Shown here: positions 407 to 19,987 of the stretch, piece by piece
Layout of the letters: every line of letters starts with the position of its first letter
How positions within the stretch are numbered: the stretch's first letter is position 1
NCBI GenBank assembly: GCA_030602885.1
Contig: JAUVYV010000001.1
Span: forward strand, 62,001 to 126,000
Length of the DNA: 64,000 nt
Direction of reading: 5' to 3'
Origin: Phycisphaerales bacterium
GTDB taxonomy: Bacteria > Planctomycetota > Phycisphaerae > Sedimentisphaerales > Anaerobacaceae
Program-made: the position numbers and the translations under genes
Notes under the pieces: model-generated
Told to the model about the DNA's origin: nothing
What the model saw: only the letters and a program-made list of their open reading frames with translations
Database searches by the model: none

Positions 407-471
407 GGGCGTGGTATAAATACCGATTTTATCGGGAAAGAAAAAGGAATGGTAGTAAGGAAGTGATTGAA

Positions 472-1008: not shown

Positions 1009-1106
1009 AAAGAGCACCGATGCACAAGAACATCGGCGCCTAAGGCTTACGGAGACGAACAGGGTCACAAACGCGAAAAGCAGATGTCGGGGTAAAGGAG
1101 CAAACG

Positions 1107-3562: not shown

Positions 3563-3687
3563 TTTTCAGGTCTCCTAAGGAGTTTCTTCGCTGTATTAGA
3601 ATTAATCGACATATTCGCCGGTTTGCTGCAAACGTTTTTGTGGATAATGCTTTGATTTTGGCGTAAAATCGATATATTGATGGTTTG

Positions 3688-3720
3688 CCCCGTTAGAGGG
3701 GAGAAGATACTCTAACGGGG
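3688..3720. repeat. CCCCGTTAGAG inverted-repeat element before the foldase gene
   Basis: Perfect 11-base arms CCCCGTTAGAG (3688-3698) and CTCTAACGGGG (3710-3720) flank an 11-base loop. The element ends one base before the TTG start of the next gene. The same arm sequence recurs at 12963-13047, so this is a dispersed element rather than a simple terminator; it lacks a T-run. Confidence 0.75.
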
Positions 3721-3721
3721 T

Positions 3722-4879: not shown

Positions 4880-4931
4880 ATTAGTCGTTGGTGTTTTCGC
4901 GGCAGAGCCGGAATTGGATTGCATATAACCG

Positions 4932-5336: not shown

Positions 5337-7185
5337 CTGCGTAGTCATCGGGGCTGGGCACGCCGGGATAGAAGCGGCTCACGCTGCTGCGAAGATGGGT
5401 GCGAAGACCGCACTTGTGACAATTGCCAAAGACGGGATAGCGGCGATGAGCTGCAACCCCGCGATCGGGGGACTGGCAAAAGGTCAGATTGCGCGGGAGG
5501 TCGATGCGCTCGGGGGGCTGATGGGTCTTGCGACGGATGCGGCGGGCTTGCAGTTTCGGATGCTGAACCGCTCGAAGGGCCCTGCGGTTCAGGCGCCTCG
5601 GGCACAGGCGGACAAGTACCGATATCAGCGGTATATGATTGAGGCGCTGGAGCGGACGGAGAACCTGACGATTATCGAGGCCCTAGCGGGCGACATCATC
5701 GTAGAGGCAGGCAAGGTACGGGCGGTCCGGTGTAAAAACGGGCGTGATTATGCGGCGGAAGCGGTTGTGGTTGCGACGGGAACGTTTTTGCGGGGGCTGA
5801 TGCACATAGGCGCCGAGCAGTTCGAGGGCGGCAGGCGTGGTGAGCCGGCGGCGAATGAGCTGTCGGCGAGTCTGGAGCGGCTGGGACTGGTTGTAAAACG
5901 GCTCAAGACCGGCACGCCGCCGCGGCTGGATGCGTCAACCATTGATTACGAAAAGTTAGAGGCCCAGCATGGAGATGCCGAGCCGGTGCCTTTTTCGTTT
6001 ATGACCGAGCGAATAGAAACCGAGCAGATACCCTGCTGGATAACATATACGAATGACAAGATTCATCGATTGCTTCGGGACAACCTTGACAGGGCGCCGC
6101 TTTATACGGGCCAGATTCAATCGACCGGGCCGAGGTACTGCCCGAGCATCGAGACGAAGATAGTTCGCTTTGCGGACAGGTCGCGGCATCAGGTGTTTTT
6201 AGAGCCGGAGGAAGAGGAGAGAAAAGTTATCTACTGCAACGGGGTGAGCACGTCGCTGCCTGCGGATGTTCAGGACCAGATGATAAGGCTGCTGCCGGGA
6301 TGCGAAAGGGCGAAGATTTTGCACTACGGCTATGCGATTGAATATGACTACTGCCCGCCGGTACAGTTGAAGAGCAACCTTGAGACGAAGAAGATATCGG
6401 GATTGTTCTTGGCGGGACAGATAAACGGCACCAGCGGTTACGAGGAGGCGGCAGGCCAGGGGATTATGGCAGGGATGAACGCGGCCAGGAAAATACAGGG
6501 AGCGGAGCCGATTGTCTTAGGGCGGGACCAGGCATATATCGCCGTGATGATAGACGACCTGCTGACGAGGGGGCTCGGCGTAGAGCCGATGGGAATCACC
6601 GATGAACCTTACCGGATGTTTACCTCGCGGGCCGAATACCGGCTTAGCTTAAGGGCCGATAATGCGGACAGGAGATTGACACAAATCGGAAGGTCGGTCG
6701 GCGTTGTGGATGGGGCAAGGTGGGCTAAATACGAGAAAAAGCTTTGTGACATTGAAAAACTGAAAAATTATCTGACCGGGACGCGCATCGCCGGGAGGAG
6801 CTTGTGGGAGCAGCTTCGCCGGCCGAAGAATACATTGGCAGAGACAATGTCCGATAACGCGGATGTAAAAAAGATGAGTTTCGACAAAACGGTCCTGGAG
6901 GCAGTGGTTATTGATGCAAAATACGAGGGCTACTTAGCCAAGCAGCAGCGATTAGTGGCCGGGCTGAAGGCACTGGACAGAAAAGGGATACCGGCGGACC
7001 TGGACTATGATAAGATCTGCCATCTGCGTGTTGAGGCGAAAGAGAAGCTATCGGTCTTCAGGCTTGAGACGCTCGGCCAGGCGAGCAGGATAAGCGGGAT
7101 AACGCCGGCGGATATTACGGTGATACAGATACACCTGAAGAAGTACTACCACCATCGAACAGACAAAGCCCAGGCAAACGGTTAG
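5317..7185 (+). CDS. mnmG: tRNA uridine-5-carboxymethylaminomethyl modification enzyme MnmG (GidA)
   Basis: A 622-residue FAD enzyme, full length for the family. With MnmE it installs the carboxymethylaminomethyl group on wobble U34 of tRNAs. Visible hallmarks are the N-terminal dinucleotide fold GAGHAGIEAAHAAAKMG (about residues 12-28), the signature block MSCNPAIGGLAKGQIARE, the PRAQADKYRYQRYM segment, two conserved Cys regions (QSTGPRYCPSIE and EYDYCPP), the FAD-binding GLFLAGQINGTSGYEEAAGQG block and the helical C-terminal MnmE/tRNA-binding domain. No mnmE gene is in the window. It overlaps acpS and is followed 9 bases later by a radical SAM gene. Confidence 0.97.
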   Translation: MKANEFDCVVIGAGHAGIEAAHAAAKMGAKTALVTIAKDGIAAMSCNPAIGGLAKGQIAREVDALGGLMGLATDAAGLQFRMLNRSKGPAVQAPRAQADKYRYQRYMIEALERTENLTIIEALAGDIIVEAGKVRAVRCKNGRDYAAEAVVVATGTFLRGLMHIGAEQFEGGRRGEPAANELSASLERLGLVVKRLKTGTPPRLDASTIDYEKLEAQHGDAEPVPFSFMTERIETEQIPCWITYTNDKIHRLLRDNLDRAPLYTGQIQSTGPRYCPSIETKIVRFADRSRHQVFLEPEEEERKVIYCNGVSTSLPADVQDQMIRLLPGCERAKILHYGYAIEYDYCPPVQLKSNLETKKISGLFLAGQINGTSGYEEAAGQGIMAGMNAARKIQGAEPIVLGRDQAYIAVMIDDLLTRGLGVEPMGITDEPYRMFTSRAEYRLSLRADNADRRLTQIGRSVGVVDGARWAKYEKKLCDIEKLKNYLTGTRIAGRSLWEQLRRPKNTLAETMSDNADVKKMSFDKTVLEAVVIDAKYEGYLAKQQRLVAGLKALDRKGIPADLDYDKICHLRVEAKEKLSVFRLETLGQASRISGITPADITVIQIHLKKYYHHRTDKAQANG

Positions 7186-7194
7186 TGAAGGTAT

Positions 7195-8238
7195 ATGAGG
7201 CAACTGTCGGACAGTGTCTATAACAGCCAGGTCGGACGGGCCGAGGCAAAGTTCAAGCTTTGGCACAATGCCGGTCTTTTGCTGACGTACAAATGCAATG
7301 CGAGCTGTGAGTTCTGCTATTACAACTGCTCACCGCAGCAGGGTGGGCTGATGGAGGTTGAGACGGCGATTGCGAGCTGGCAGGGCCTAAGAGAACTGGC
7401 GGGTGAGGATGCGAAGATTCATATAACAGGGGGTGAGCCGTTCTTGTACTGGGAACGGATGATAGAGATACTGCAACAAGCCCAAAAGGAGAAGCTCAGG
7501 CCTTGTGACTTGATTGAGACAAATGGTTACTGGGCCACGGATGAGGCAATAGTGAGGGAGCGGCTGGGTGTTCTTGATAAGCTCGGAATGAAGCGGCTGA
7601 AGATAAGCGTGGACCCATTTCATCAGGAGTACGTTGATATTGAACCGGCTCGGCGGTTGGCACATATCGCAAAGGAGCTGTTGGGAGCCAAACGGGTGCT
7701 GGTTAGGTGGGAGAAGTATCTTGAAAATCCGATTGAGATGAAAGGTCTTTCCAAACAAGAGAAGCAGCAGCGGTACAGGGAGGCAATGAAGGATTATCCG
7801 TGTCGGTTTACAGGACGGGCGGCAGGCAAATTGGCTCGGCTGGTTGCGGGCGAAACTGTTGAAAAGATTGCGAAGACCAATTGCAGGGTGGCTTTCTTAG
7901 GGGCCAAGGGTGTGCATATAGACCCTTACGGTAACGTCTTCAGCGGGACATGCAGCGGGATTATTTTGGGTAATGTCACCGAGGATTCGCTGGGCGATAT
8001 CTGGGAGAAGTGGCAGCCGGGGGATGATGAGATAATCAATACACTTTTTTTTAGTGGGCCTGTCGGGCTGCTTGGAGAAGCTGTGAAGCTTGGGTATCGG
8101 CCGAGGGAGGTCTATGCGGGCAAGTGTCATCTTTGCACGGACGTTCGGCGGTTTCTTCTCGAGCGGGGACAGTTCAGTTCGACAATTGGACCGGCGGAAT
8201 GTTATGGGCATACAGAGGGCAGGACAGGCAACTATTGA
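7195..8238 (+). CDS. Radical SAM protein with C-terminal Cys-rich region
   Basis: A 347-residue radical SAM enzyme. The cluster motif is CNASCEFC (CX3CX2C, about residues 32-39), followed by the Gly-rich [12 protein letters not shown]-binding motif and a TIM-barrel core. The C-terminal third holds further cysteines (CRVAF, GTCSG, and CHLCTD near residue 320) in the arrangement seen in SPASM/Twitch-type maturases, with the typical phrase DPYGNVFSG...[16 protein letters not shown]. The substrate cannot be deduced; SPASM-like enzymes often modify peptides or proteins, but no precursor peptide gene is evident nearby. It follows mnmG closely and converges on the hydrogenase operon. Confidence 0.8.
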
Positions 8239-8264
8239 GAAGCCGGAAGAAGAGAGGGGAAATT

Positions 8265-8750
8265 TCAAGGGTTGGGAGGAAAGACCTGAACGAGCATTTG
8301 CGTGAGAGACCGGACGGACTCGGCGACCTTCGTTGAAAGGGGCTCTCCGAGTGTCAGGTCGGCAGGCTGAATACCAATAAGGAAGACATCAACGTCGATG
8401 CTCTGTTTGATCATATCGATGAAGATTCTCGGCGAGAGCGTGTGCGTCGAGATAACGAGAGAATTCAGGTCCTCCGGCTGGAAAATCTTTACACTGCCGG
8501 GCGTAGCGCCGAAGTCGATGGCGTCGATGATGAGCAGGTTGTCCGGCGCCTTCTTTATGATGGGCTGGATGTAGTTTTCGGGGACGGTCCCTGCATCGAT
8601 GATTTCGGCGGAGATTTTGCCCTTTAGCTCCTCGCAGATTATCGGGCCGGCTCCATCGTCGGCCTTGAGGGTGCTGCCTATTCCGACGATAAGGGTTTTC
8701 GAGCCGCGAAGCCCATTAAGCTGGTCGATAATATGTCGGTCGGTTTTCAT
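8265..8750 (-). CDS. hycI: [NiFe] hydrogenase maturation endopeptidase (HycI/HyaD family)
   Basis: A 161-residue protein of the M52 peptidase family, the last gene of the hydrogenase operon. These proteases remove the C-terminal extension of the hydrogenase large subunit after nickel insertion. The GIGSTLKADDGAGP motif (about residues 22-35) carries the Ni-binding Asp/Glu region, DAGTVPEN and IDAIDFG (about 75) hold the second ligand region, and STHTLSP (about 100) the third. The presumed target is the large subunit at 15507-16697, which has a tail of about 35 residues after DPCYSCTER. It lies about 40 bases after the NuoI-like gene. Confidence 0.88.
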   Translation of the reverse strand: MKTDRHIIDQLNGLRGSKTLIVGIGSTLKADDGAGPIICEELKGKISAEIIDAGTVPENYIQPIIKKAPDNLLIIDAIDFGATPGSVKIFQPEDLNSLVISTHTLSPRIFIDMIKQSIDVDVFLIGIQPADLTLGEPLSTKVAESVRSLTQMLVQVFPPNP

Positions 8751-8789
8751 CTGCGTACAACGGGCGATAAGATAGGCGCGACCGGGTTT

Positions 8790-9476
8790 TCAGAGTTTGA
8801 TATTGAGCTCGCACTTGCACTTGGGGCAGAGGATGCGCATAAAGTCGCGCGTCTGAGCGGGAGCTTCGGTTTTTGCCGGTTGTGCGATTTCTTCGCGTCC
8901 GGCGGCGAGCTCGCCGCCTTTTGCAATCAGCAGCGCAGGGTTGGTGTAGGCAAGCGGGCCGAGCTTTTCGTACAGCCAGAGAAGATGCTTCTTTGTTCCA
9001 ACCACCGCACCGCATTTTTCACACAGCTGCAGCTCGAACTCGTGGGTCTCGACCTCGCTGAACCTGTCGAGAGTAGCGAGGTCCCAGATTTTGGACAGCT
9101 TTATGCTTGCGCCGGTATCGGCGGTCGCGCAGTTTTGCTCGCAGTTTCCGCAGAAGATGCAGGTATAGTAATTAAGGGTTATCCTGCGAACCGGCGGTTC
9201 GGCGTCGAGGTCGTCTTCCATCTGCAGGCACACACTCGATGGGCACGTATTGACACAGGCGCCGCAGCCGATGCAGGTATCGGTGTCGAATTCGGGCTTT
9301 CCCCTGAACTTTTCAGGCACTTCGATCGGTTCTGCGGGAAAACGCGTGGTGAATCGCGGGGAAAAGACCGCAGTAACAGCTTCTTTTAGCTCTCTGAGTT
9401 TTGGCAACCACATAAAATACTCCTCAATCGTGTTTTCGTCTTTGGCCTGTCGCAGCCAATCGGCAGAAAAGCTCAC
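8790..9476 (-). CDS. 2x[4Fe-4S] hydrogenase subunit (NuoI/MbhN-like) with C-terminal zinc-ribbon tail
   Basis: A 228-residue electron-transfer subunit. Two ferredoxin motifs, CIGCGACVNTCP (about residues 70-81) and CIFCGNCEQNCA (about 108-119), should bind two [4Fe-4S] clusters as in NuoI, HyfH and MbhN, linking the membrane hydrogenase to its electron partner. After this come CEKCG and, at the very C-terminus, CPKCKCE, pairs that could form a zinc ribbon; the region between is rich in Ala and Glu. It begins with GTG, overlapping the mrpG stop as GTGA. The tail is longer than in ordinary NuoI proteins. It follows the antiporter genes, as mbhN does within mbh-type operons. Confidence 0.85.
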   Translation of the reverse strand: MSFSADWLRQAKDENTIEEYFMWLPKLRELKEAVTAVFSPRFTTRFPAEPIEVPEKFRGKPEFDTDTCIGCGACVNTCPSSVCLQMEDDLDAEPPVRRITLNYYTCIFCGNCEQNCATADTGASIKLSKIWDLATLDRFSEVETHEFELQLCEKCGAVVGTKKHLLWLYEKLGPLAYTNPALLIAKGGELAAGREEIAQPAKTEAPAQTRDFMRILCPKCKCELNIKL

Positions 9477-9811
9477 GATTCTTTTTTGCCTGCTTCTTCT
9501 GCGTATTTATCGACGACACTCTTCTCCCACAGTTTGACTCCGGAGGCGTAGGAACCTTTGGCGATAGCGTGGGCGGCGGTGGGTGAGGTTATCAGGATGA
9601 AGACGGCGCATACAACGGCTCTTGAAGCCGTTGGGCCCACGCCGCTGATGAGAGCGACACCGACGAGCAGCATGATGGTTCCGAGCGTGACGCATTTCGT
9701 CGAGGCCTGCAGCCGGTTATAGACATCGGGGAAGCGGACCAGGCCGATACAGCCGAATATGTCAAACAGGACTCCGATTGTTATCAGTATGTACCCAATT
9801 ACATCAGTCAT
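9473..9811 (-). CDS. mrpG: Mrp-type Na+/H+ antiporter subunit G
   Basis: About 112 residues with three predicted membrane helices; the sequence GCIGLVRFPDVYNRLQASTKCVTLG is the MnhG/MrpG/MbhC signature. It is a small subunit of the cation/proton antiporter module. I start it at ATG 9811 (MTDVIGY), which overlaps the mrpF stop by 8 bases; an upstream in-frame ATG adds residues that merely cover the mrpF tail. The stop overlaps the start of the NuoI-like gene. Confidence 0.9.
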   Translation of the reverse strand: MTDVIGYILITIGVLFDIFGCIGLVRFPDVYNRLQASTKCVTLGTIMLLVGVALISGVGPTASRAVVCAVFILITSPTAAHAIAKGSYASGVKLWEKSVVDKYAEEAGKKES

Positions 9812-10061
9812 CGAAACTTCTGCCCTCCAGGAATTTTGCAAGTGCTATAGTGCCGATGAAGCTCAGCAGCGCCCAGACAAGTGCGACATTAAGGTAGAAA
9901 TCCTTTCCCGTAACCAGTGACAGCAGGGCGCAGAACCCCACAATGAGAATTCCGAGGATATCAATTGCCACGGTTCTGTCGGGGGCGCTCGGGCCGCGAC
10001 CTATGCGATAGAGACACAAAAAGCAACAGATAAGCAAGCCGATGTAAAATACATTTATCAT
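9804..10061 (-). CDS. mrpF: Mrp-type Na+/H+ antiporter subunit F
   Basis: An 85-residue protein with three membrane helices and the family pattern RIGRGPSAPDRTVAIDILG, which includes the conserved Asp of MrpF/MnhF/MbhB. It lies between mrpE and mrpG, overlapping mrpG. The membrane subunit is needed for assembly of the antiporter; in Mbh-type hydrogenases the same protein forms part of the ion-translocating module. Confidence 0.9.
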   Translation of the reverse strand: MINVFYIGLLICCFLCLYRIGRGPSAPDRTVAIDILGILIVGFCALLSLVTGKDFYLNVALVWALLSFIGTIALAKFLEGRSFDD

Positions 10062-10073
10062 GGGAACCTCTTC

Positions 10074-10589
10074 TTATTCAAAAATTCTCGCGATAAACCA
10101 CTCAAACTTCTGAGCGATATGTTTGGTGGCCTGGTCGATATCGTCCGATTTTACGTTAATCCAGTGAACATAGAGAAAGCCGTCGTCGGTCAAATCAACG
10201 GTGAGTGTCCCGGGTGTCAGGGTTATGGAGTTTGCCAGAGCGGTGACGGCGGAATCGGTTTTGAGATTCGTTTTGATCTTTACAATGCCGGGGCTTATGG
10301 GCATTTTAGGGTGCAGGGCTCGATACACAACGTCGAAGTTGGCTTTGATTATGTAGTAGAAGAACACCGGGATATAGACGAGGAGCCAGAACATCCTGAC
10401 GGGCGAGACAAAGACGTGATGCTCCCTGGGGAGGATATCGTGGAAGAGAAAAGCGACGATGAGTGCGGCTATAACGCCGGCGACAAACATCTGAATGTCG
10501 ATCTTGCCGTCCGTAAAAGGCCAGGCACCGAATATCCAGATGATTAGTCCGACAACAAAATATATTGCTCTTCTTGCAATTAGTTTCAT
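10074..10589 (-). CDS. mrpE: Mrp-type Na+/H+ antiporter subunit E
   Basis: A 171-residue MrpE/MnhE/MbhA protein: two N-terminal membrane helices (about residues 8-50), then a cytoplasmic domain with the typical blocks NFDVVYRALHPKMPISPGIV and TLTPGTLTVDLTDDGFLYVHWI. It follows mrpD by 15 bases and precedes mrpF. It is one of the seven Mrp proteins present in this operon. Confidence 0.9.
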   Translation of the reverse strand: MKLIARRAIYFVVGLIIWIFGAWPFTDGKIDIQMFVAGVIAALIVAFLFHDILPREHHVFVSPVRMFWLLVYIPVFFYYIIKANFDVVYRALHPKMPISPGIVKIKTNLKTDSAVTALANSITLTPGTLTVDLTDDGFLYVHWINVKSDDIDQATKHIAQKFEWFIARIFE

Positions 10590-10604
10590 ATCACCGAACC
10601 TTCA

Positions 10605-12134
10605 TTACTTACCTATCACATTGACTGCGTAAAGAAGACCATCCGTCAGGACGTCCACAGCGGGCGTCAATACAGTGGCTCTCAAGTATGGCACCAGCAC
10701 CAGCAGGCCCATAAAGCTGCACAGTACGGCGAGCAGTACCATAGCAACAAGCATGGAACCCCTGTGCTCTTTTATTTGTTGCAGGTTTTCAGGCAGCTCG
10801 CCTAAGAACGCATATCGCTGTACCTTCAGATACATTATCAGGGTACACAAACTTACGAAGACAATTATTGCAGCGATCCAGTAGAGGCCGGCCCCAACGG
10901 CGGCGACTACGAGGATCAGCTTGCTCCAGAATCCGCTAAACGGGGGGATACCTGCAATCGAGGCCGACGCAATGGTGCAGGTGGTTCGCGTAAAGGGCAG
11001 TTTCTCTGCGAGCCCACCCATTTGTTTTAACTGCCTCGTTCCAGTTGACATCTGGACCGAGCCGCTGGTAAGGAACAGCAGCGACTTATAGACGGCGTGG
11101 TTGACGAGATGGAAGAGTCCGCCGAGAATGGCCAGTGAGGCCCAGGCAGCGTGGCCCTGGGCGAGCAGGGTAGCACCGAGGCCGAGGCCGAGAACCACGT
11201 AGCCGACCTGGCTGATACTCGAATAGGCGAGCAGCCGTTTGAAATCCCACTGTCCGAAAGCAAGAAACGCACCGACGACCATGCTGACAAGGCCCAGAAC
11301 CACTAAGAGCCAGCCGATTGTCACAGAGACACCGAAGATACAGAAGACCATTCTGGTCAGTGCGTAAACGCCGAGGGTCTTGATGAGGACGCCGGAGAGC
11401 ATAGCTGAAATCGGCGCCGGAGCCGAGGGATGTGCATCAGGCAGCCACGCGTGGAAGGGGACAAGGGCGGCCTTTAGTCCGAAGCCGGCAACAAACAAGG
11501 CCAGGGCGAATGCCAGGCCCGGGTTCAGGCCAACGGTATTGATTGCCTTCGAGGCGTATGCCATGTTCAGGGTGCCGGTGTTGCCATAGACAAGGCCGAT
11601 GCCGAAGAGCACAAACACCGATGCGATGGTGCCGAGCACCATATATTTGAATGCCGCCTCGAGCTCTTCGTTGTTACAGCCGAAACCGACAAGAGCGTAT
11701 GACGCAATCGATGCGATCTCGAGGAAGACATAAAGATTGAACAGGTCGCCCGAGAGCACCACGCCGTTCATACCCGCCACCATAAGCATAAACAGGCTCA
11801 GATACTTCGGCTTGGCGGTGTACTGTTCCATATATCGGGTGCTGAAGAGCATTGCGGCGGTGCTGACAACACCGATGGCCAGCAGCAGCAGAGAGCTGAG
11901 CCCGTCGAGGACCATATTGATTCCGATGGGAATGGACCACTTACCGATTTCATAGACCTGGATGTCCTCGCTTCGGCCGAGGGCCAGGACAGCCAGTACG
12001 AGCAGCGATATGGTCGCCAGATTGGCCAGGAGCGTTGCAAAGGACTTCGCCTTTCGCCCAAGGCCGCTGAGGATCGGCAGAAAGAACGCAGCTATCAGAG
12101 GTATGGCAACAAAGACGGGCAGCGGTATATTCAT
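10605..12134 (-). CDS. mrpD: Proton-conducting antiporter-like subunit (MrpD/NuoN/MbhH family)
   Basis: A 509-residue protein with about 14 membrane helices from the proton_antipo_M family. Key features are a Glu in helix 5 (LYVFLEIASIASYALVG), the Lys-containing GFGLKAALVPFHAWLPDAHPSAPAPISAMLSG block (about residues 215-245) and the broken-helix region around HLVNHAVYKSLLFL (about 330). These residues line the ion path in complex I and Mrp. It begins with ATG overlapping the mrpC stop as ATGA and is followed by mrpE. Confidence 0.92.
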   Translation of the reverse strand: MNIPLPVFVAIPLIAAFFLPILSGLGRKAKSFATLLANLATISLLVLAVLALGRSEDIQVYEIGKWSIPIGINMVLDGLSSLLLLAIGVVSTAAMLFSTRYMEQYTAKPKYLSLFMLMVAGMNGVVLSGDLFNLYVFLEIASIASYALVGFGCNNEELEAAFKYMVLGTIASVFVLFGIGLVYGNTGTLNMAYASKAINTVGLNPGLAFALALFVAGFGLKAALVPFHAWLPDAHPSAPAPISAMLSGVLIKTLGVYALTRMVFCIFGVSVTIGWLLVVLGLVSMVVGAFLAFGQWDFKRLLAYSSISQVGYVVLGLGLGATLLAQGHAAWASLAILGGLFHLVNHAVYKSLLFLTSGSVQMSTGTRQLKQMGGLAEKLPFTRTTCTIASASIAGIPPFSGFWSKLILVVAAVGAGLYWIAAIIVFVSLCTLIMYLKVQRYAFLGELPENLQQIKEHRGSMLVAMVLLAVLCSFMGLLVLVPYLRATVLTPAVDVLTDGLLYAVNVIGK

Positions 12135-12496
12135 CCTCGCAACCTCCTGATCTCAGTGATATCGAACGTGCCGTATCTCTCATAAGTTCTTATGCAGAGA
12201 GCAATCATCAAGGCCAGGGAGCCCAGACTGATAACGATAGAGGTCAGCACGAGGGCCTGCGGCAGCGGATCGACACAGTTGTTCACAAAGGCGGAGGTGA
12301 CCTTGTCGATTCCCGCAAGCTCGCCTTTGCCTACGATTGGAGCGACGCCGCCGATTCTGTATCCGAGCATAATCAGGAAGATGTTAACGGCATATTCCAT
12401 TATGATGATGCCGAGGACAATCTTGACCATGTTCTTTTTGACGACTGCACAATACAGCCCCGTCATAAACAATAAGAAGCACCATGCATAAGCCAT
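12131..12496 (-). CDS. mrpC: Mrp-type antiporter subunit C (NuoK-like)
   Basis: A 121-residue, three-helix NuoK/MrpC/MbhG protein. The block GIIIMEYAVNIFLIMLGY carries the conserved acidic residue in helix 2, and DPLPQALVLTSIVISLGSLALMIAL is the C-terminal signature. I place the start at ATG 12496, with AAGGAG 6 bases upstream; the frame extends further upstream, but those codons have no family resemblance and overlap mrpB. Confidence 0.9.
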   Translation of the reverse strand: MAYAWCFLLFMTGLYCAVVKKNMVKIVLGIIIMEYAVNIFLIMLGYRIGGVAPIVGKGELAGIDKVTSAFVNNCVDPLPQALVLTSIVISLGSLALMIALCIRTYERYGTFDITEIRRLRG

Positions 12497-12501
12497 ATAT
12501 T

Positions 12502-12993
12502 TTACTCCTTTTCGCCTCGCAAGTGAGCCGGCCTGAACATTGAAAGCACCAGTATTATGAGAAACAGCGACGCGCCGACTTTTATGCCGATGAAGATGTT
12601 TGAGAGAGGTATCGTACCGGCGCTGACAAGCTCGAGAGCTTTGCTCGGCAGTATTTGCTGCCGGAAGAGCCAGTTGACAAAGAAGGAGCCGCCGAGTATC
12701 AGGCCCAGGACAGCGACGAGCGCAAAGAGCAAAGCGCCGATACAATCAAATCTCGAGGCCCATCGCAGCGGCAGGTTCTCTTCAACAAATTCTCTTCCGA
12801 AGGCGAGCATAAGCAGGACATAGGAGCCGGCGATGATGACGCCGCCTGCAAATCCGCCGCCGGGGGTTAGATGGCCTGTAATGATGATATAGATGCCGAA
12901 CAGAAATATGAGCATCTTGACCCAGCTGCTTATCGTTTTGACTATTACGGTCATACCTTTGGCCCCGTTAGAAGGGCTCGAGTTCGCTGCCAT
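12502..12993 (-). CDS. mrpB: Mrp-type antiporter subunit B with repeat-derived N-terminus
   Basis: A 163-residue MnhB/MbhF protein with four membrane helices and the motif TGHLTPGGGFAGGVIIAGSYVLLM. Family members usually begin near MTVIVKT, here residue 14 (ATG 12954), but the only good ribosome-binding site (GGAGG, 13002-13006) serves ATG 12993. The additional 13 residues are partly encoded by one arm of the CCCCGTTAGAA repeat, and the ribosome-binding site and start codon lie inside the loop between its arms. Translation could therefore be affected by that stem. Confidence 0.88.
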   Translation of the reverse strand: MAANSSPSNGAKGMTVIVKTISSWVKMLIFLFGIYIIITGHLTPGGGFAGGVIIAGSYVLLMLAFGREFVEENLPLRWASRFDCIGALLFALVAVLGLILGGSFFVNWLFRQQILPSKALELVSAGTIPLSNIFIGIKVGASLFLIILVLSMFRPAHLRGEKE

Positions 12994-13047
12994 TACTATT
13001 ACCTCCTACTATGTTTCACTGTTTTATCCGTCGCGTTTCTAACGGGG
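12963..13047 (-). promoter_or_regulatory. Long-range inverted repeat enclosing the mrpB ribosome-binding site and start
   Basis: CCCCGTTAGAA (12963-12973) and TTCTAACGGGG (13037-13047) are perfectly complementary over 11 bases. In the transcript the first arm begins one base after the stop codon of the preceding gene and the second lies in codons 7-11 of mrpB. The enclosed 63 bases hold the Shine-Dalgarno GGAGG and ATG. This is the same element as at 3688-3720 but with a larger loop. A regulatory effect is inference. Confidence 0.55.
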
Positions 13048-13048
13048 T

Positions 13049-13606
13049 TCATTCGTCGAGGTCCTCCGGAAGCTTTTTTGCCTTCTTTCTCAAGATAGCG
13101 GTCGCGCCGATAATCGAGGCGAACAGGACGGTCGCCTCGCCGAGCGTGTCATAAGCACGGAAATCGAGAATAACGGAAGTGACGATGTTCGAGGCGCCGG
13201 TTTCTTCGAGGCCCCGGCTCACATAGGTTTGTGACGCGGCTTCGGGCGTTCTGGTATAGACAGCGGTGCCGAAATCAGGCAGCTGTCTGAAGATGCCGAT
13301 ACCGGCCATAAAGATGGCGAAGAGGATAACAACGGAAACGACCATTCCGAAAAATTCTCTGTCACCGCTGATGAAGGTGAGGTCTCTGGAGATAGTGGCC
13401 CTGATGAGGATAACCAGGCCCAGAACTTCGACGACTATCTGTGTCATAGCGATATCGGGGGCCTTTAGAAACAAAAATATCAAAGAGCCGCCGAAACCGA
13501 TGGCACCGACACAGATGACGGCACTAAGCAGGTTTCGCGTTTCCACGGCAATAAATGCGGCGATGAGCACAAACGCCATCAGGGCATAGAATATGAAGAG
13601 TTCCAT
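13049..13606 (-). CDS. Antiporter module subunit fusing MbhD and MbhE domains (MrpA C-terminal part)
   Basis: A 185-residue membrane protein. The first half (about residues 1-75) is a DUF4040/MbhD-like unit with the pattern FLKAPDIAMTQIVVEVLGLVIL; the second half resembles MbhE/MrpA C-terminus, with DTLGEATVLFASIIGATAILRKK. In bacterial MrpA these domains are fused to the large NuoL-like part; here the NuoL-like part is the separate gene just upstream (13614-15485), 7 bases away. The split arrangement resembles Mbh hydrogenases more than stand-alone Mrp antiporters. Confidence 0.85.
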   Translation of the reverse strand: MELFIFYALMAFVLIAAFIAVETRNLLSAVICVGAIGFGGSLIFLFLKAPDIAMTQIVVEVLGLVILIRATISRDLTFISGDREFFGMVVSVVILFAIFMAGIGIFRQLPDFGTAVYTRTPEAASQTYVSRGLEETGASNIVTSVILDFRAYDTLGEATVLFASIIGATAILRKKAKKLPEDLDE

Positions 13607-13613
13607 AACTACC

Positions 13614-15485
13614 TCACCAGATATCGCAAAGAATAAAAAGGATAATCAACAACCCGAGAGTTACCCAGGTCAGATACATCGGCAGCACGCCGGAGTGCAG
13701 CCACCTGAGAAATGCCGTTAGACCAAATCCGAGCCGCCCACCCTGGTCGTACAGGTCGAAGTAGCCCTTTTCCTGTCCCTTGTAGAGCTGCCTGAGCCCG
13801 CCCATAGACGAAACAGTCTTGTAGAAATGTGTGCCGGGGATAATCATCTGTTCGTTGTCCTGCACTTCGCCGCAGTACCAGGTAGGCACGATTCGAACTT
13901 TCTTTGCCATCAGACCTCCGACGAGCAGGATGCCCAGGCCGAGCAGAATTCCGACTATAATCAGGACGGTGGCAAGGCCCGACTGCCAGGTACCCAAAGC
14001 CGTCGTTGTGGCGGTGATGTTCAGGGCAGGGTAAATCAGCTTTTGAACCGGCACGTAGTAGAAAATTCCGAAGAAGACGCACAGGCCGGCAAGGAGGAGC
14101 ATCGGGATCCATTGAACGGCCGACGTCTCTTTTATATCTTTGAGGTCGTCAGGCAGACGGGAAAGGAATATCGAATGAATGAGCTTAACGAATGAGGCAA
14201 GGGTAAGGGCACTTCCGAACATTGCGGCGACGAGCCAGAGAGGCCAGAGCTGTGCAGCGGGGGCTGCTTTCTGAGCGCCCATTTCGATGAGGCCCTGATA
14301 AATCATCCATTTTGAGACAAAGCCGTTTAGCGGGGGTATTCCGGAAATGCTCAGGGCGGCAATAAGGCAGGCGGCGAAAGTGAGCGGCATTTTCTTGCCG
14401 AGTCCGCCGAGCCGGTCGAGCTCGGCGGTGCCGGTCTGCTGTTCAACGGCGCCGCCGCAGAGAAACAGACAGCACTTATATATGGCGTGGTTTAGCATGT
14501 GGAATACGCCACCTGCGATTCCAATGGGGGTGGCGGACGCGATGCCGAGGACCATGTAGCCGACCTGGCTGATAGCATGGTATGAGAGCAGTCTCTTTAG
14601 GTTGTGCTGCACCATTGCGACCATAACGGCAATGATGATAGTGGCGGCGCCGATGACCGACAGGACGATGGTCAAAGCTCCCGGCTGGAGGACAAAGATG
14701 TTTCTGACTATAAGGACCAGCAGGTAGATTCCGAGAAGCTTGTCGATTGCGGCAGGGAGCAAAGCCATTACGGAGGTTGGTGCGGATTCGCCGCTTGTCG
14801 GCAGCCAGGTATGCAGGGGCATAGCGCCTGCCTTGGTAATCGCCGCTGTCATAAGCAGCAGGAAAGCGATGATAGAAAGCGCCGAATCAGTTTGAATGCT
14901 GATTGCAGAGATGGACAGCGTGCCGGAAAGCGCCCACAGCATCAGGACGCCGAGTAAGAAAGCGGCGTCGGAGGCCCCTATCATTGCGAAGCTCTTGGTT
15001 GCTGCGAAGTTCGAGTTTTTGCCGCCGGTTGTTATGAGAAGGTACAATGAAGCGGTGACAATCTCCCAGAAGATGAGCATGAACAACAGGTTGTCGCAAA
15101 GCAGTATGCCCGCTGAGCCGCCTATCGTCAGCAGCACCGAGCCGTAATAAAGACCGCTCTTGTCCGTCCCGGCCCTTGACTTGAGAGAATAAACCGTTAT
15201 CAGCAGGCCAAAGCCGCAGGCGAAGAGCAGGATGAATTTACCCAGCGGCTGGACGAGCAGAACGAGTTCGAGGTCGAGCGTGCCAATCTGCAGGACAGGC
15301 CAATAGAACCCGTAGCGGTCAAACGTGAATATCCAGATGGACAATCCAAAGACCAGGGCGGAGATTAAAAGCGCCAGCACCTTCGGCAGAAGCTTCCACC
15401 TGCCGGGAGAAAACAGCAGCGCAAAGCCAACAACCATCGGCACAAAGACCGTAATGCACAGAAAGTTACAGACAGAATCAGCCAA
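13614..15485 (-). CDS. NuoL/MrpA-type proton-conducting subunit
   Basis: A 623-residue antiporter-like protein with about 16 membrane helices. Conserved features are the helix 5 Glu (FMLIFWEIVTASLYLLI), the KAGAMPLHTWLPTSGESAPTSVMALLPA block (about residues 215-245), the HxxxHxxxK-like GGVFHMLNHAIYKCCLFL segment and a hydrophilic helical C-terminal extension. It is the N-terminal, ion-pumping part of MrpA/NuoL. The start is TTG at 15485 with AAGGAAGG upstream. With mrpD it gives the complex two pump-like subunits. Confidence 0.9.
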   Translation of the reverse strand: MADSVCNFLCITVFVPMVVGFALLFSPGRWKLLPKVLALLISALVFGLSIWIFTFDRYGFYWPVLQIGTLDLELVLLVQPLGKFILLFACGFGLLITVYSLKSRAGTDKSGLYYGSVLLTIGGSAGILLCDNLLFMLIFWEIVTASLYLLITTGGKNSNFAATKSFAMIGASDAAFLLGVLMLWALSGTLSISAISIQTDSALSIIAFLLLMTAAITKAGAMPLHTWLPTSGESAPTSVMALLPAAIDKLLGIYLLVLIVRNIFVLQPGALTIVLSVIGAATIIIAVMVAMVQHNLKRLLSYHAISQVGYMVLGIASATPIGIAGGVFHMLNHAIYKCCLFLCGGAVEQQTGTAELDRLGGLGKKMPLTFAACLIAALSISGIPPLNGFVSKWMIYQGLIEMGAQKAAPAAQLWPLWLVAAMFGSALTLASFVKLIHSIFLSRLPDDLKDIKETSAVQWIPMLLLAGLCVFFGIFYYVPVQKLIYPALNITATTTALGTWQSGLATVLIIVGILLGLGILLVGGLMAKKVRIVPTWYCGEVQDNEQMIIPGTHFYKTVSSMGGLRQLYKGQEKGYFDLYDQGGRLGFGLTAFLRWLHSGVLPMYLTWVTLGLLIILFILCDIW

Positions 15486-15506
15486 TTGGGAACCTTCCTT
15501 TCACCC

Positions 15507-16697
15507 CTAAAGAATTTCCTTCTTTATCCTTGCTGTTTTTTCACGGCTTAACTTCAGCAGCGACTCGTAGTCGTGTATAACGTTATTGTGGCCGTCAACC
15601 ACGGCCAGCCGCTCGGTGCAGCTATAGCAGGGGTCAACCGCGGCCAGCGTGATGGTGACATCGGCGATGTGCTGGCCGATGCACGAGGCCCTGAATGAAG
15701 GCACGTTGACAAAGCTCGGCGCCCTGATTTTGTGCCGGACAGGCCTGTTGCCGCCGTCGCTGCGGACGTAGTGAAAAGTTTCGCCCCTCGGCGCCTCGGC
15801 ATGACCGCATCCCTCTCCGGCAGGAATTTCCTTTACTTCCATATCAATAGGCCCGTCGGGCAGCTTGTCCACGGCCTGTCTTATTATTTTGATAGATTCG
15901 AGAACCTCCAGAAGCCGCACGACCGCCTTGGCAAAGACGTCGCCTTCCGGCTGGGTTATCACGTTCCAGTCCAGATCGCTGTACGCCGCGTACGGGTCGT
16001 CGCGCCTGACATCGATAGCAATACCGCTACCCCTGGCGGTCGGGCCGGCCACCGCATACTGCCTGGCTGCCTCCTTCGTCAGCACTCCTACGCCTTTGAG
16101 CCGGGCGTGTATAACAGGGTCATCGAGCACGACCTTGACGAGCATCTCCACCTTCTTTTCGAGCTCGTCGAGTTTCTGCCTGATTTTCGGTATCATCTCG
16201 TTGGGGACATCCTCCCTGCATCCGCCCACTTTGACGTTCCCATAGTTGTTTCTGTTGCCGGTGATTTCCTCGAGGATATCGAGGACGGGCTCGCGGTATT
16301 TCCAGGCCCACATAAAGACGGTGTCGTAACCGATGAAGTGCCCTGCCAGACCGACCCACAGCATATGGCTGTGTATCCGCTCAAGCTCGTTGATGATTAC
16401 ACGGACATACTGAGCACGCTCGGGCGGTGTTATGCCGGCGATTTCCTCCACCGCGTTTACATACGCTAACGGGTGCGACGCCGAACAGATGCCGCAAACG
16501 CGGGAGACCAGAAACGGAACCTGGTCGAACTGGAGTGTCTCGCTGATTGCCTCTATGCCGCGATGGTTGTACGAAATTCGCATGTCAATATCGGTAACGA
16601 TTTCTCCGTCGAGGGTAAGCTGAAAGAATTCCGCCTCTTCCTGGAGCGGATGAAACGGGCCTACCGCAAGAACCGGCTTATTCAATATCTTTTTCAT
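15507..16697 (-). CDS. Group 4 [NiFe] hydrogenase large subunit (NuoD-like)
   Basis: A 396-residue catalytic subunit. Unlike NuoD of complex I it retains both nickel-binding motifs: RVCGICSASH (about residues 66-75) and DPCYSCTER (about 354-362). It should therefore carry a Ni-Fe site producing or oxidising H2. About 35 residues follow the second motif, a tail that the M52 protease encoded at 8265-8750 would cut. The start overlaps the end of the NuoC-like gene by 20 bases. Motif spacing and neighbours (NuoB, C, H, I and antiporter proteins) place it in group 4 membrane-bound, energy-converting hydrogenases; the subgroup needs a phylogeny. Confidence 0.93.
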   Translation of the reverse strand: MKKILNKPVLAVGPFHPLQEEAEFFQLTLDGEIVTDIDMRISYNHRGIEAISETLQFDQVPFLVSRVCGICSASHPLAYVNAVEEIAGITPPERAQYVRVIINELERIHSHMLWVGLAGHFIGYDTVFMWAWKYREPVLDILEEITGNRNNYGNVKVGGCREDVPNEMIPKIRQKLDELEKKVEMLVKVVLDDPVIHARLKGVGVLTKEAARQYAVAGPTARGSGIAIDVRRDDPYAAYSDLDWNVITQPEGDVFAKAVVRLLEVLESIKIIRQAVDKLPDGPIDMEVKEIPAGEGCGHAEAPRGETFHYVRSDGGNRPVRHKIRAPSFVNVPSFRASCIGQHIADVTITLAAVDPCYSCTERLAVVDGHNNVIHDYESLLKLSREKTARIKKEIL

Positions 16698-17178
16698 TTT
16701 TCAGTTCCTTCGTTTTGCTCCCTTCGGCAGGCTCAGGGCAGGCAGGACAAGCTTTCCTTAACGGATACACACCCTCCGGCCAGTCATCGGACAGTATCAA
16801 ACGTCTCAGGTTGGGATGATTCTTGAAATCGATTCCCAATACGTCATGAGTTTCTCTTTCTATCCACTCGGCCCCGGGTATCAAGGGCGTGATAGACTCG
16901 ATGGACGGGTTCTCATGGTCGCGTATGAACGCCCTGGTCGTCACAAACGTGCCGGTTTCGTCGTTCGCAAAATGATAGAGAATCTCGAAACAACCTTCTG
17001 CGTCAATTCCGGTCGCAATGACGAATCTGAGATTCAGCCCTTCGAAGAGGAATTTGTCCACGGCATAAGCATCTTCGGCCTCGCAGAGAAGGTATATCCT
17101 GTTGTCCCTGGGTTGTTCAATTGCGATTAGCTTATCTTTGATTTCTTCGAGCCGACTTTTCAGTTCTTCCTGCTTCAT
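16678..17178 (-). CDS. Hydrogenase NuoC-like subunit with repeat-derived C-terminus
   Basis: A 166-residue protein matching the 30 kDa NuoC/MbhK/HycE N-terminal family: ERETHDVLGIDFKNHPNLRRLILSDDWPEGVYPLRK (about residues 107-142) is the family signature, quoted in parts. Homologues end soon after YPLRK. Here the frame continues with ACPACPEPAEGSK and a Lys/Glu-rich tail. That insert matches a well-known dispersed palindromic repeat whose translation reads PEPVEGSK. It connects the catalytic large subunit to the small subunit and overlaps the large-subunit gene. Confidence 0.88.
   Translation of the reverse strand: MKQEELKSRLEEIKDKLIAIEQPRDNRIYLLCEAEDAYAVDKFLFEGLNLRFVIATGIDAEGCFEILYHFANDETGTFVTTRAFIRDHENPSIESITPLIPGAEWIERETHDVLGIDFKNHPNLRRLILSDDWPEGVYPLRKACPACPEPAEGSKTKELKNEKDIE
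16717..16750. repeat. Palindromic repeat element inside the NuoC-like gene end
   Basis: The + strand reads CCCTTCGGCAGGCTCAGGGC followed by AGGCAGGACAAG. This resembles the widespread intergenic element with the core TTCGACAGGCTCAGG. It lies within the last codons of the NuoC-like gene and supplies its stop-proximal sequence. Confidence 0.55.
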
Positions 17179-17191
17179 ATCACAGTTCCAC

Positions 17192-17620
17192 TTAGAGAAT
17201 CGCCAGTGCTTTTACGATACCGGAAATCATCGCCTCCGGCTTGGGCGGACATCCCGGAACGTATGCGATAATCACGTTCGGGTCTTCCTTTTTAAGTATT
17301 TCATCCACCGGTCCCGCCACGTGGTATCCACCGGCGAATATACCTGTTCCGATTGCGCAGGCACCAATTAAGAAAACGACGCAGGGCTTGGGCATCTGGC
17401 GATAGATTTCAAGCAGTCGCGGAACCGCCTGGCGCGTTCCCACGCCGGTTACCAAAAGGGCGTCGGCGTGACGGGGTGAGCCGACTAATTTAATGCCGAG
17501 CCGTTCGATGTCGTACTTCGGCGTAAGACAATTGACGATTTCAATATCGCAGTTGTTGCACGCACCGGTATTAACGTGGAATACCCAGGGCGATTTCTTT
17601 AACCATCTTATCCAGTTCAT
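17192..17620 (-). CDS. Hydrogenase small subunit (NuoB/MbhJ-like)
   Basis: A 142-residue protein with the cysteines that bind the proximal [4Fe-4S] cluster next to the Ni-Fe site: GACNNCDIE (about residues 19-27), GACA (about 87) and PGCPPKPE (about 125). It is short, as usual in group 4 enzymes, and lacks the distal cluster domain of uptake hydrogenases. It sits between NuoH-like and NuoC-like genes, 9 bases from the former. Confidence 0.92.
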   Translation of the reverse strand: MNWIRWLKKSPWVFHVNTGACNNCDIEIVNCLTPKYDIERLGIKLVGSPRHADALLVTGVGTRQAVPRLLEIYRQMPKPCVVFLIGACAIGTGIFAGGYHVAGPVDEILKKEDPNVIIAYVPGCPPKPEAMISGIVKALAIL

Positions 17621-17629
17621 AAACTTACC

Positions 17630-18574
17630 TTAAAGCCATGCGATGTCATAGATGTTGCCAATTGTCGCCAGCGCGACGGCAATCACCAGGGCAATACCGC
17701 AATAGACCCAGAAGAACTTCATTGCCTGGTCAATCCGTACACGCGGGTTGGTGTTCTTTATCAAAATAATTAGTACGACCACAATGACATACTTACCGAT
17801 ACCCCAGACTAAGCCGGCAAGAGTGCTGCCGAAGCCGCCCAAAAAGACCATCACAAGGAACATAGGCAGGGCGACAAGCATCATCGCGTGCATAACCTTC
17901 CAGACGGCTAACAGCGCGCCGGAATATTCCATCAAAACGCCGCTGCCGAGCTCGGTTTCCGCCTCCGCCATATCGAAGGGGACATAGCCGAGTTTGGCCT
18001 GGATACAAAGCAGGCTCATAAAAAAGGCTATAAAACCAGAGATACTACCAACAGATGCATGACTCGATATGCCCGCTAAGCTAAGCTCACCGCCCGACTT
18101 GATAATCACAACTATAAAAGCCATGACTAAAGGCAGCTCGTAACTCATTACTAACTTCATCTCGCGGGCCGCCCCTACCGCGGCGTGCGGACTGGCACTG
18201 GCGCTGGAGCCGAGAATCAATGCCAAAGACGGCAGGACCATAAGATAGATAACGACAATGATGTCGCCGACGAAGGTCTCCTGTGGCCAGAAGGCAGCTA
18301 CCCCGAGCACCGTCGAAAGCAGCAGGACACCTGCCAAACCCACGAGCGGTGCCGTAACAAATATGGCTCTGTTAGCCTCCTGCGGAATCAGGATTTCCTT
18401 TCCCATCAGTTTCATAACATCGTAGAAGGGCTGGAAAACGGGCGGGCCGACGCGGTATTGGACAAGGGCGCCGACCTTACGTACAAGATAGGTCGCAACG
18501 AGTCCCAGCGCAAACGTGAACACAAAGCCCGGAAAAATCAAAATCCAAAACGGTATCCAGAATACTTCACCCAT
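17630..18574 (-). CDS. Hydrogenase membrane anchor subunit (NuoH/HyfC/MbhM-like)
   Basis: A 314-residue protein with about eight membrane helices. The blocks RVGPPVFQPFYDVMKLMGKE, EMKLVMSYELPLVMAF and KLGYVPFDMAEAETELGSG are the NuoH family signatures, with the acidic residues thought to couple electron transfer to ion movement. It is the membrane foot on which the hydrogenase module sits. It is followed by the small-subunit gene. Confidence 0.92.
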   Translation of the reverse strand: MGEVFWIPFWILIFPGFVFTFALGLVATYLVRKVGALVQYRVGPPVFQPFYDVMKLMGKEILIPQEANRAIFVTAPLVGLAGVLLLSTVLGVAAFWPQETFVGDIIVVIYLMVLPSLALILGSSASASPHAAVGAAREMKLVMSYELPLVMAFIVVIIKSGGELSLAGISSHASVGSISGFIAFFMSLLCIQAKLGYVPFDMAEAETELGSGVLMEYSGALLAVWKVMHAMMLVALPMFLVMVFLGGFGSTLAGLVWGIGKYVIVVVLIILIKNTNPRVRIDQAMKFFWVYCGIALVIAVALATIGNIYDIAWL

Positions 18575-18592
18575 CTTACGTTTTTCCTTATT

Positions 18593-19123
18593 CTATGCTT
18601 GTGCGCCTTGGGTATCCCTCAGGAAGGGCTCCCAGAGCTGGCCGCCCTTGACCCGCACAACGATATCCTCGAAGACCTCGGTCAAATCATCCTCTTTTTC
18701 GACATCGACTTCTTTGTAATCTATGCTGCCGTCCGTGCATGTTTCGACGCATAAGGGCTTTTCGCCCGGAGCCAATCTGCCCTTGCAACGGTCGCACACA
18801 CTGCTCGGATAGCCAATCAGGTCGGTATAAATCGTCCCGAAGGGACAGGCAATGGCACACGTGCCGCAGCCGGTACACAGCATATTTGCCCGTTTGAGCG
18901 TGCCGCAGTCGTCCTCTTCGGTCTTGACCTTCTCCAAAGCCCCCTGAGGACATGCCTTGATGCACGGAGCGGAATCGCACCGTCGGCAGATAAGTGCGAA
19001 ACGAATCATCTCGAGCAGCGCATCGATACCCTGGTTCTCAGGATGGTGCTTATAGGAGCACCGCACACCGGAATCTTCCTGAAGCTCACACTTTGCCAAA
19101 TCGATTACAAGCTTTGCACTCAT
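18593..19123 (-). CDS. Multi-[4Fe-4S] electron-transfer protein (HydN/CooF-like)
   Basis: A 176-residue ferredoxin-like subunit. Cysteine clusters CRRCDSAPCIKACP (about residues 47-60), CTGCGTCAIACP (about 83-94) and CDRCKGRLAPGEKPLCVETC (about 110-129) resemble the four-cluster HycB/HydN/CooF family, although the N-terminal set (KCELQ...C) is irregular. It probably relays electrons between the beta/gamma subunits encoded upstream and the hydrogenase core. It lies between the FAD-containing gamma-like subunit and the NuoH-like gene. Confidence 0.85.
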   Translation of the reverse strand: MSAKLVIDLAKCELQEDSGVRCSYKHHPENQGIDALLEMIRFALICRRCDSAPCIKACPQGALEKVKTEEDDCGTLKRANMLCTGCGTCAIACPFGTIYTDLIGYPSSVCDRCKGRLAPGEKPLCVETCTDGSIDYKEVDVEKEDDLTEVFEDIVVRVKGGQLWEPFLRDTQGAQA

Positions 19124-19165
19124 ATTTTTTCTCTTATTGCTGGTTGCCCCTGTCGTGTCCTCTAA

Positions 19166-19987
19166 TTAATCCCATATCTTGGGGTATTTCTTTATCTGGT
19201 CATAAGTAAAGACCGGCCCGTCCTTGCACACATAGTACTTCCCAATCATACAATGGCCGCACTTACCGAAACCGCAGCTCATATTCTTTTCCATAGACAG
19301 GTATATCTGCTCGTCGGCAAAACCGAACTCGAGCAGCTTCAACGTTGCAAACTTCATCATAATCGGCGGCCCGCAAACCACGGCGACGGCGTTCTTGATG
19401 TTCACATCGTCGCCCTTCAGGATAGTAGTGACCACACCCACGTTGCCCTTCCAGTCGCCGTTTGCCTTATCGACGGTGAGTTTGATATCGACGCCGTCGA
19501 TTTTCTGCCACTTGCCGTGAAGTGTTTTCTTGTAGATGAAATCCTCGGGTGTCCTGGCCCCGTAACGGCAAACGATGGATTTGAAGTCCTTTGCCCTCTC
19601 GACTAATGTCAGAAACAGCGAGCGTATCGGCGCCAGGCCGACTCCGCCGCCGACGATATAGACGTCCTTGCCTACGAAATCCTCAATGGGATAGCCGTTT
19701 CCGAAGGGACCTCGAATACCGACCTTCTGCCCTTTTCCGCACTTATGAAGCAGATTCGTAACCCGCCCTGCATTCATAATGCTTATTTCCATCTTCTCGG
19801 TATCGTTCGGCGACGACGAAGGTGTGAACGGCGCTTCGCCTTCACCCGGCAGGGTCAATTCGACAAACTGGCCGGTTTCGAACTTAAACGGGCCGTTTGT
19901 TACGACGACAAAAGTCTTTATCGTTGGCGACTCATCTATGATGTCGATGATTTCACTGTCTATCGGCTGGTATGGATTTTCGCTCAT
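19166..19987 (-). CDS. hydG: FAD/NAD(P)-binding oxidoreductase (sulfhydrogenase gamma / AsrB-like)
   Basis: A 273-residue ferredoxin-NADP reductase-like protein. An FAD domain (about residues 10-105, GQFVELTLPGEGEAPF and IRGPFGNGYP) is followed by an NAD(P)-binding domain starting at YIVGGGVGLAPIRSL (about 110-125). A C-terminal cysteine cluster, MSCGFGKCGHCMIGKYYVCKDGPVF, would bind a [2Fe-2S] centre as in PyrK, AsrB and the gamma subunit of Pyrococcus sulfhydrogenase. It would pass electrons between NAD(P)H and the beta-like subunit encoded just upstream, with which it overlaps (ATGA). Its presence with a group 4 hydrogenase is unusual. Confidence 0.88.
   Translation of the reverse strand: MSENPYQPIDSEIIDIIDESPTIKTFVVVTNGPFKFETGQFVELTLPGEGEAPFTPSSSPNDTEKMEISIMNAGRVTNLLHKCGKGQKVGIRGPFGNGYPIEDFVGKDVYIVGGGVGLAPIRSLFLTLVERAKDFKSIVCRYGARTPEDFIYKKTLHGKWQKIDGVDIKLTVDKANGDWKGNVGVVTTILKGDDVNIKNAVAVVCGPPIMMKFATLKLLEFGFADEQIYLSMEKNMSCGFGKCGHCMIGKYYVCKDGPVFTYDQIKKYPKIWD

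Follow-up and report, generated by a model that had tools for sequence, protein, structure and literature searches.

A MITE-like mobile palindrome at the start of mrpB probably provides the gene's present start codon

Rickettsia palindromic elements (RPEs) are short palindromic repeats that have entered protein genes in frame and are translated with them (PMC10969869, PMC2229807, both in excerpt). The excerpted accounts give them a length of about 150 bp, conserved peptides and ten families (PMC10969869), and a 12-bp TIR, with the target duplication marked by a question mark (PMC2229807). Start codons have been described in other bacterial repeats: MITEAba12 has them near its ends, where they could allow fusions (PMC6382973, in excerpt), and some copies of the pneumococcal BOX element hold one, with no good Shine-Dalgarno (SD) sequence in the excerpt of PMC3049150. 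The excerpt of PMC5678879 has IS1272 inserting by replacement of inverted repeats, without duplication.

Here we describe a palindrome at the start of the antiporter gene mrpB in a window of 64,000 nt (the whole stretch of DNA analysed) from a Phycisphaerales bacterium. We give a probability of roughly 80% to the reading that a MITE-like mobile palindrome entered the mrpB start at ATGAA and duplicated TGAA, translation now most likely beginning at an ATG carried in the loop of the element.

A palindrome inserted in the mrpB start codon

The two arms of the element are 11 nt each, 100% complementary and separated by a 63-nt loop that holds a GGAGG and an ATG, with a spacer of 8 nt between them (minus strand; Table 1). 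The frame from the loop ATG crosses the right arm as ..SSPSNGAKG.. and continues as the MnhB protein, whose Pfam domain (E 9.8e-27) begins at residue 17 of ORF 12502-12993. On the other side the upstream ORF ends in a TGA (13049-13051), so that the element occupies the whole gap to mrpB. The initial annotation had claimed this layout, with arms that bracket the GGAGG and ATG of mrpB, one arm translated into extra N-terminal residues and an element filling the gap between two genes, and it stands on all of these points.

Table 1. Positions of the mrpB element, of the signals around it and of the second copy in the window
Feature	Position	Strand	Basis
Inserted palindromic element, 85 nt (arms and loop)	12963..13047	minus	Sequence; arms missing at 29/29 relative loci
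5' arm CCCCGTTAGAA, mRNA sense	13037..13047	minus	Sequence
3' arm TTCTAACGGGG, mRNA sense, coding for part of P-S-N-G	12963..12973	minus	Sequence, ORF translation
Loop GGAGG, Shine-Dalgarno candidate, anti-SD duplex energy -11.5	13002..13006	minus	Sequence
Loop ATG, most likely the present mrpB start, 21 nt 5' of TCTAACGGGG as in other copies	12991..12993	minus	ORF, family register
mrpB/mnhB, 163 aa counted from the loop ATG	12502..12993	minus	ORF list, Pfam
Upstream antiporter-operon gene, 185 aa	13049..13606	minus	ORF list
Left target-duplication copy, TGAA	13048..13051	minus	Sequence and family rule
Right target-duplication copy, now CCAA (probable decay)	12959..12962	minus	Sequence, against relatives reading ATGAAAGG
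Native mrpB ATG (13050-13052), opening the 17-codon frame MNPVRNATDKTVKHSRR	12999..13052	minus	Sequence
Old Shine-Dalgarno GGAGG 5' of the native start	13063..13067	minus	Sequence; relatives have GGAGG at the same position
Second family copy, 33 nt, TTTG on both flanks	3688..3720		Sequence

Related genomes have mrpB without the element. The gene was matched 34 times in 33 of the 89 genomes of the window's family (its own included), and 29 relative matches were compared, four further, weaker ones being left out. The comparison with relatives that had been proposed at the outset gave a uniform answer: arms are present at 0 of the 29 loci and the extra N-terminal residues in none of the 29 proteins. 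All 29 starts are readable, 28 as M-[KRS]-G-M and one (L075) as MTVIV, and in 21 of the 29 the ATG shares an ATGA with the stop codon that ends a long upstream frame. The window reads ..GGAGGACCTCGACGAATGAA, then the element, then CCAAAGGTATGACC.., so that the element interrupts the ancestral ATGAAAGGTATG; 85 bp are inserted within the ATGAA of the mrpB start, with an imperfect target duplication, TGAA/CCAA. By the rule of the family described below, the duplicated target would be TGAA, with the right copy turned into CCAA by two substitutions. The mrpB insertion is present in one genome only; with its decayed duplication and two mismatches in its 13-bp ends, it looks old.

The native SD and ATG both survive in the window, and the native frame terminates at a TAA that adjoins the new GGAGG. 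With its duplication the insert would amount to 89 nt, no multiple of 3 and including an in-frame stop, which cuts the native ATG off from mrpB. In the mechanism that we propose, the palindrome would have inserted in the start codon and copied the 4-nt TGAA of ATGAA, translation would have shifted to the ATG that stands 8 nt after the loop GGAGG, and MAANSSPSNGA would have replaced the first Met of native MrpB, a net gain of 10 residues. The first suggestion, that a repeat has captured the translation signals of mrpB, is supported by the comparison with relatives, by this block and by parallel cases in other genes.

A family of target-duplicating palindromes

The initial annotation had treated the palindrome as a dispersed repeat; beyond that, it is a target-duplicating mobile element found in many phyla. 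Its family has ends made of a fixed CCCCGTTAGA plus 3 bp that vary yet stay paired, giving a paired end of 13 bp. All four letters occur at positions 11, 12 and 13, yet these positions pair in 104, 95 and 77 of the 108 cross-phylum copies with a length of 44+ nt, against 41, 53 and 39 in shuffles, pairing at position 14 is at shuffle level, and the first 10 end letters were imposed by the search pattern. Copies are 29-122 nt long with no transposase gene inside, and their interiors (253 distinct among 262 copies) form, by eye, small subfamilies only.

Several observations bear on mobility. First, a 4-nt direct repeat stands just outside the arms in 153 of 262 distinct copies (109 are without a perfect repeat), and 152 of the 153 duplications fit YNNR, as do 23% of background 4-mers. 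Within the family set of 110 copies, 61 have such a duplication against 4.1 in shuffles, there is no repeat excess at 2, 3, 6, 7 or 8 nt, and 5-nt repeats number 2 against 0.07; the cross-phylum and viral set gives 80 of 132 copies against 13.0. Second, empty sites are found at 29 of 29 relative mrpB loci and at 27 of 30 readable purQ loci, which are without SNG. The ends and the fixed-length duplications suggest insertion by an integrase or transposase that would act on the ends in trans.

No autonomous parent with the same ends appeared in 18 long spans or at 37 transposase loci. The spans were those of 140-5000 nt with family-like ends (at most 1 mismatch) and matching YNNR flanks, and inspection by eye of how the longest ORF begins showed no transposase in any of the 18. 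The Pfam transposase families tried were PF01797, PF01609, PF13701 and PF13751. PF01797 (Y1_Tnp) occurs in 77 of 89 genomes, element-rich or not; PF01609 occurs in 7 of 14 and is missing from the element-rich G010, G019, G023 and G070; PF13701 occurs in 5 of 15 and PF13751 in 6 of 22. The 37 Y1 and PF01609 loci yielded a variant arm pair at one (L333) and a single near-match at two. At 20 DDE loci (17 PF01609, 3 PF13701), inverted 11-mers 900-3000 nt apart were of other sequence among the matches listed, and 7 of the 20 had no inverted 11-mers.

Two of these loci can be described individually. L333 (G027:C668), a locus of 3.4 kb, combines a variant pair of the TCCC type, TCCCGTTAGA..TCTAACGGGA, with a Y1 transposase gene and is the sole Y1 locus with an arm pair among 20 examined. 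The window's own genome has an IS1380-type (PF13701) transposase at G000:C1:7890-9254 (L353), with inverted ends CCCGCATTTCTCACA that are unlike those of the palindrome.

The word dispersed is justified mainly by other genomes. In the 3.2-Mb draft genome to which the window belongs, the exact 10-mer occurs four times, always within the window, as two inverted pairs, and single 10-mers are neither above chance in the window (5 at no more than 1 mismatch, 3.1 expected) nor enriched genome-wide (4 against 14 for the reversed control). The long-loop pair occurs in 14 of 89 genomes of the window's family and the short-loop pair in 7 of 60, its own genome included each time and with 0 control hits for both. 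Arms are counted at 80+86 in G023 (reversed-pattern controls 3+2), 84+83 in G072 (9+5) and 61+55 in G003 (3+5); they are not abundant in some of the 12 genomes searched, such as G080 (1+3 against 10+3) and G009 (11+6 against 3+11). A phylum-wide draw gave the pair at a gap of 15-45 nt, a range outside which the gaps of the window's genome fall, in just 6 of 294 genomes, which indicates a patchy distribution. A scan of species genomes returned at least 115 stretches with the pair, in many uncultivated phyla; hosts among the matches listed (80 of at least 115) are Patescibacteria groups, Omnitrophota, Phycisphaerae/Sedimentisphaerales, Brocadiaceae, Nitrospirae, Deltaproteobacteria, Cloacimonadota, Bacteroidetes, Nitrospinae, Elusimicrobia, Riflebacteria, Stahlbacteria and WOR-3. 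Viral contigs have the pair in 8 stretches, where most instances may be ordinary hairpins, since only 2 of 9 copies show the 4-nt duplication.

The second copy in the window ends directly before the TTG that opens a 385-aa ORF (3722-4879) with a lipoprotein-like start, SurA/PpiC-like by eye. This TTG lies within the duplicated TTTG, and the second copy, too, may shape a gene start. At another recurrent location, in several phyla (L055, L130, L229, L247), copies occur in genes for prepilin-like proteins, at the GF-T-L-x-E leader, where the arm encodes LTG (or LSG) immediately 5' of FTL; the TTTA/TTCA of the G-F-T codons matches the YNNR target.

Gene-start insertions and the choice of start codon

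The length of the element fits with translation. It equals 2 modulo 3 in 175 of 253 distinct copies, in which element and duplication together make a multiple of 3 (the binomial p of 4e-31 is optimistic, as copies are related), and at such lengths two of the three frames traverse both arms (PVR..SNG and PL..LTG). Of the 76 frame-keeping copies in the family set, long open frames contain 18, and a further 23 are at the 5' side of one and 6 at the 3' side; the corresponding numbers for the 34 other copies are 1, 2 and 0, and most other family-set copies are intergenic or within short frames. Random windows fall 57% inside long frames, 13% at the 5' side and 13% at the 3' side, and by this measure the copies avoid gene interiors and prefer the 5' side to the 3' side. 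Placement no more than 7 nt downstream of an ATG that opens an ORF of 70+ codons, seen in 20 of 272 copies, is about three times commoner than at control sites, whether random (316 of 10840, 2.9%) or matched by 4-mer (85 of 3473, 2.4%).

Insertions at starts number 22 with variant ends included, some of them orthologous (L153, L161). In ten, the frame of the native ATG runs on through the element. The other 12 block the native ATG, and an in-frame start lies downstream in each. In four blocked cases, mrpB, gyrA (L065), formate-tetrahydrofolate ligase (L128) and L015, a loop ATG stands 21 nt before the right-arm motif; variant GGGA ends remake an ATG at the junction in L151, L255 and L333, and L129 has an ATG inside the duplicated target. 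More loop-ATG cases occur in purQ (L014, L150, L167), purH (L188), kdsB (L152) and lysS (L157), with no left arm recognised at L152 or L157. Pfam confirms mrpB, gyrA, purQ, purH, formate-tetrahydrofolate ligase, kdsB, lysS, bioD and uvrA; it found nothing at L160, and feoB was identified by eye.

The purQ insertion, 97 nt, is common to G023, G013 and G095. Its copies differ at 14-17 positions in the 66 nt 5' of the ATG and at 0-3 in the 31 nt that run from the ATG to the arm, the pattern that translation of the second part would produce. Against use of the new starts, purQ of G094, which belongs to the genus of G023, has no insertion. G013:C122 and G009:C385 (L014, L067), of two genera, carry one and the same insertion in purQ, and their match figures are identical; a second purQ of G009 (C274) is without it. 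What G013 and G009 have in common would be shared contamination or recent transfer.

That the loop ATG would be the start used in mrpB is suggested by its register and by its SD sequence. At 249 arms from loci fetched without an ATG pattern, an ATG stands at -21 in 13, the other 34 offsets averaging 2.4 with a largest value of 7, and the mrpB loop ATG is in this -21 register; across 89 genomes ATG-N18-TCTAACGGGG occurs 61 times, in 17 of them, against 7 reversed controls. SD strength is greater at the 16 loop ATGs that head a long ORF, which include related cases, than at the 29 others (medians -5.4 and -1.7, p 0.0004) or than with shuffled upstreams (p 4e-5). The individual values are -11.5 in mrpB and only -2.8 in gyrA, and native mrpB starts of relatives have a median of -9.3 (n=27). 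The mrpB loop is without the CAAAAA block of the loop-ATG subfamily and resembles that subfamily moderately, 0.7% of shuffled loops scoring as high. An ATG in 29 of 45 CAAAAA-subfamily loops was set aside as a figure from an ATG-biased sample, many loci having been fetched by an ATG pattern. An SD as a fixed trait of this subfamily was rejected, SD 4-mers occurring in 8 of 45 against 9.5 in shuffles.

The parallel cases could instead start at a junction GTG, formed by the last G of the element and the duplicated TGA, which would make loop ATGs mostly incidental. Such a GTG accompanies the loop ATG in gyrA, whose loop-ATG SD is weak, and in formate-tetrahydrofolate ligase, L015 and purH; it is the only such start, with no loop ATG in frame, in four blocked cases, bioD and feoB (L252, Omnitrophota), uvrA (L291) and L025, and AGGAGG, GGGAGG and GAGAGG precede it in L252 and L291. 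This start is impossible for mrpB, where GCC stands in place of the GTG, and for purQ, kdsB and lysS, and as an account of the parallel cases we consider it plausible while leaning against it.

A different start in mrpB itself, Met14 (GMTVIV) downstream of the same insertion, would leave the loop ATG unused. Relative L075 naturally starts at this Met, GGGGCCAAAGGTATG lies directly 5' of it, and the GGGG of the arm or an AAAGG might serve as a weak SD. This is unlikely, as the loop ATG has by far the better SD and sits in the ATG register of the family, and as purQ, kdsB and lysS have by eye no comparable start nearby downstream.

The initial annotation also noted that the start region would sit in the loop of the stem if that stem forms in the mRNA. 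An 11-bp stem with SD and ATG inside is indeed predicted in mrpB mRNA, in both the MFE and the centroid structure; its stability is ordinary (z -0.40, 65 of 200 shuffles folding as well), nothing shows that the stem matters, and a host-kept device or a role in mRNA is unsupported. A regulatory hairpin, riboswitch-like or terminator-like, kept by the host to control mrpB translation would accord with that prediction and with the three variable end positions staying paired in most copies. It is very improbable given the ordinary fold, no Rfam family match in positions 1-20000 of the window, copies at unrelated genes with direct repeats of their targets, and the purQ element, in which the upstream arm has decayed in 2 of 3 copies (1 mismatch each) and the coding arm is unchanged. 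Chance, as two unrelated complementary 11-mers flanking an ordinary start, would suit the chance-level frequency of single 10-mers in this genome and is next to impossible, with 0 control hits for the paired pattern in 89 genomes and exactly this insert missing from relatives.

Significance and comparison with described elements

The mobile-palindrome reading of mrpB points to a concrete way, used repeatedly, in which mobile DNA can give conserved genes a new beginning. Odd N-termini in genomes of uncultivated phyla that may be taken as native, such as ..ISNGV.. or an LTG directly ahead of FTL in prepilin-like leaders, would find an explanation here. The reading also raises the question of which enzyme could mobilise, in so many phyla, a palindrome whose ends are only 13 bp and whose interior is almost unconstrained. 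More tentatively, and with the odds somewhat against it, the family might consist of horizontally spread minimal mobile palindromes that evolved to be harmless to translation, with start codons as safe landing sites and the element as a portable translation-initiation cassette. Harmlessness would come from a length that, with the duplication, preserves the frame and from ends open in two of three frames. At ATGAA-type sites the last base and the duplicated TGA could recreate the start, as GTG where the ends are GGGG and as ATG where they are the variant GGGA; alternatively, the loop could bring its own SD and ATG.

We found no description of the element family in the open-licence PMC literature, by which its absence from print is not established; there the arm letters returned no bacterial-repeat paper by title among the matches listed, and the element peptide letters an unrelated match only. 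We call the element MITE-like and assign it to no named family, because we found no parent element and the copies have no common interior. Like bacterial MITEs (Correia/NEMIS, ERIC, RUP, MITEAba12, QMITE), which are short, with terminal inverted repeats and target duplications and no transposase gene, it is short and without a transposase and has 13-bp inverted ends, a 4-nt duplication (imperfect at mrpB) and empty sites. Unlike them, it has no interior common to most copies (253 distinct of 262) and no parent IS that we found, it has a frame-keeping length, and it recurs at starts in conserved genes with an SD.

IS1272 shares with it the link between palindromes and an IS in the excerpted account (PMC5678879), where the IS replaces the palindrome, whereas in the present family it is the palindrome that inserts and duplicates its target. 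REP/RAYT sequences resemble it as small dispersed palindromes, going by the excerpt of PMC3733652. Unlike REP/RAYT, the present element makes true 4-nt duplications, and Y1_Tnp does not track it, G019 (genome 74% complete) having 50 arms and 0 Y1 matches. To our knowledge, target duplications are not expected of Y1 transposition.

The closest likeness in behaviour, on our best reading, would be to the RPEs. Compared by description, the present family differs from them in its clear 4-nt YNNR duplications, 13-bp ends and mostly unrelated interiors, in hosts that span many phyla and in favouring start codons as sites. What it has in common with them is in-frame insertion into protein genes, as seen in the frame-keeping copies inside long frames and at their 5' side.
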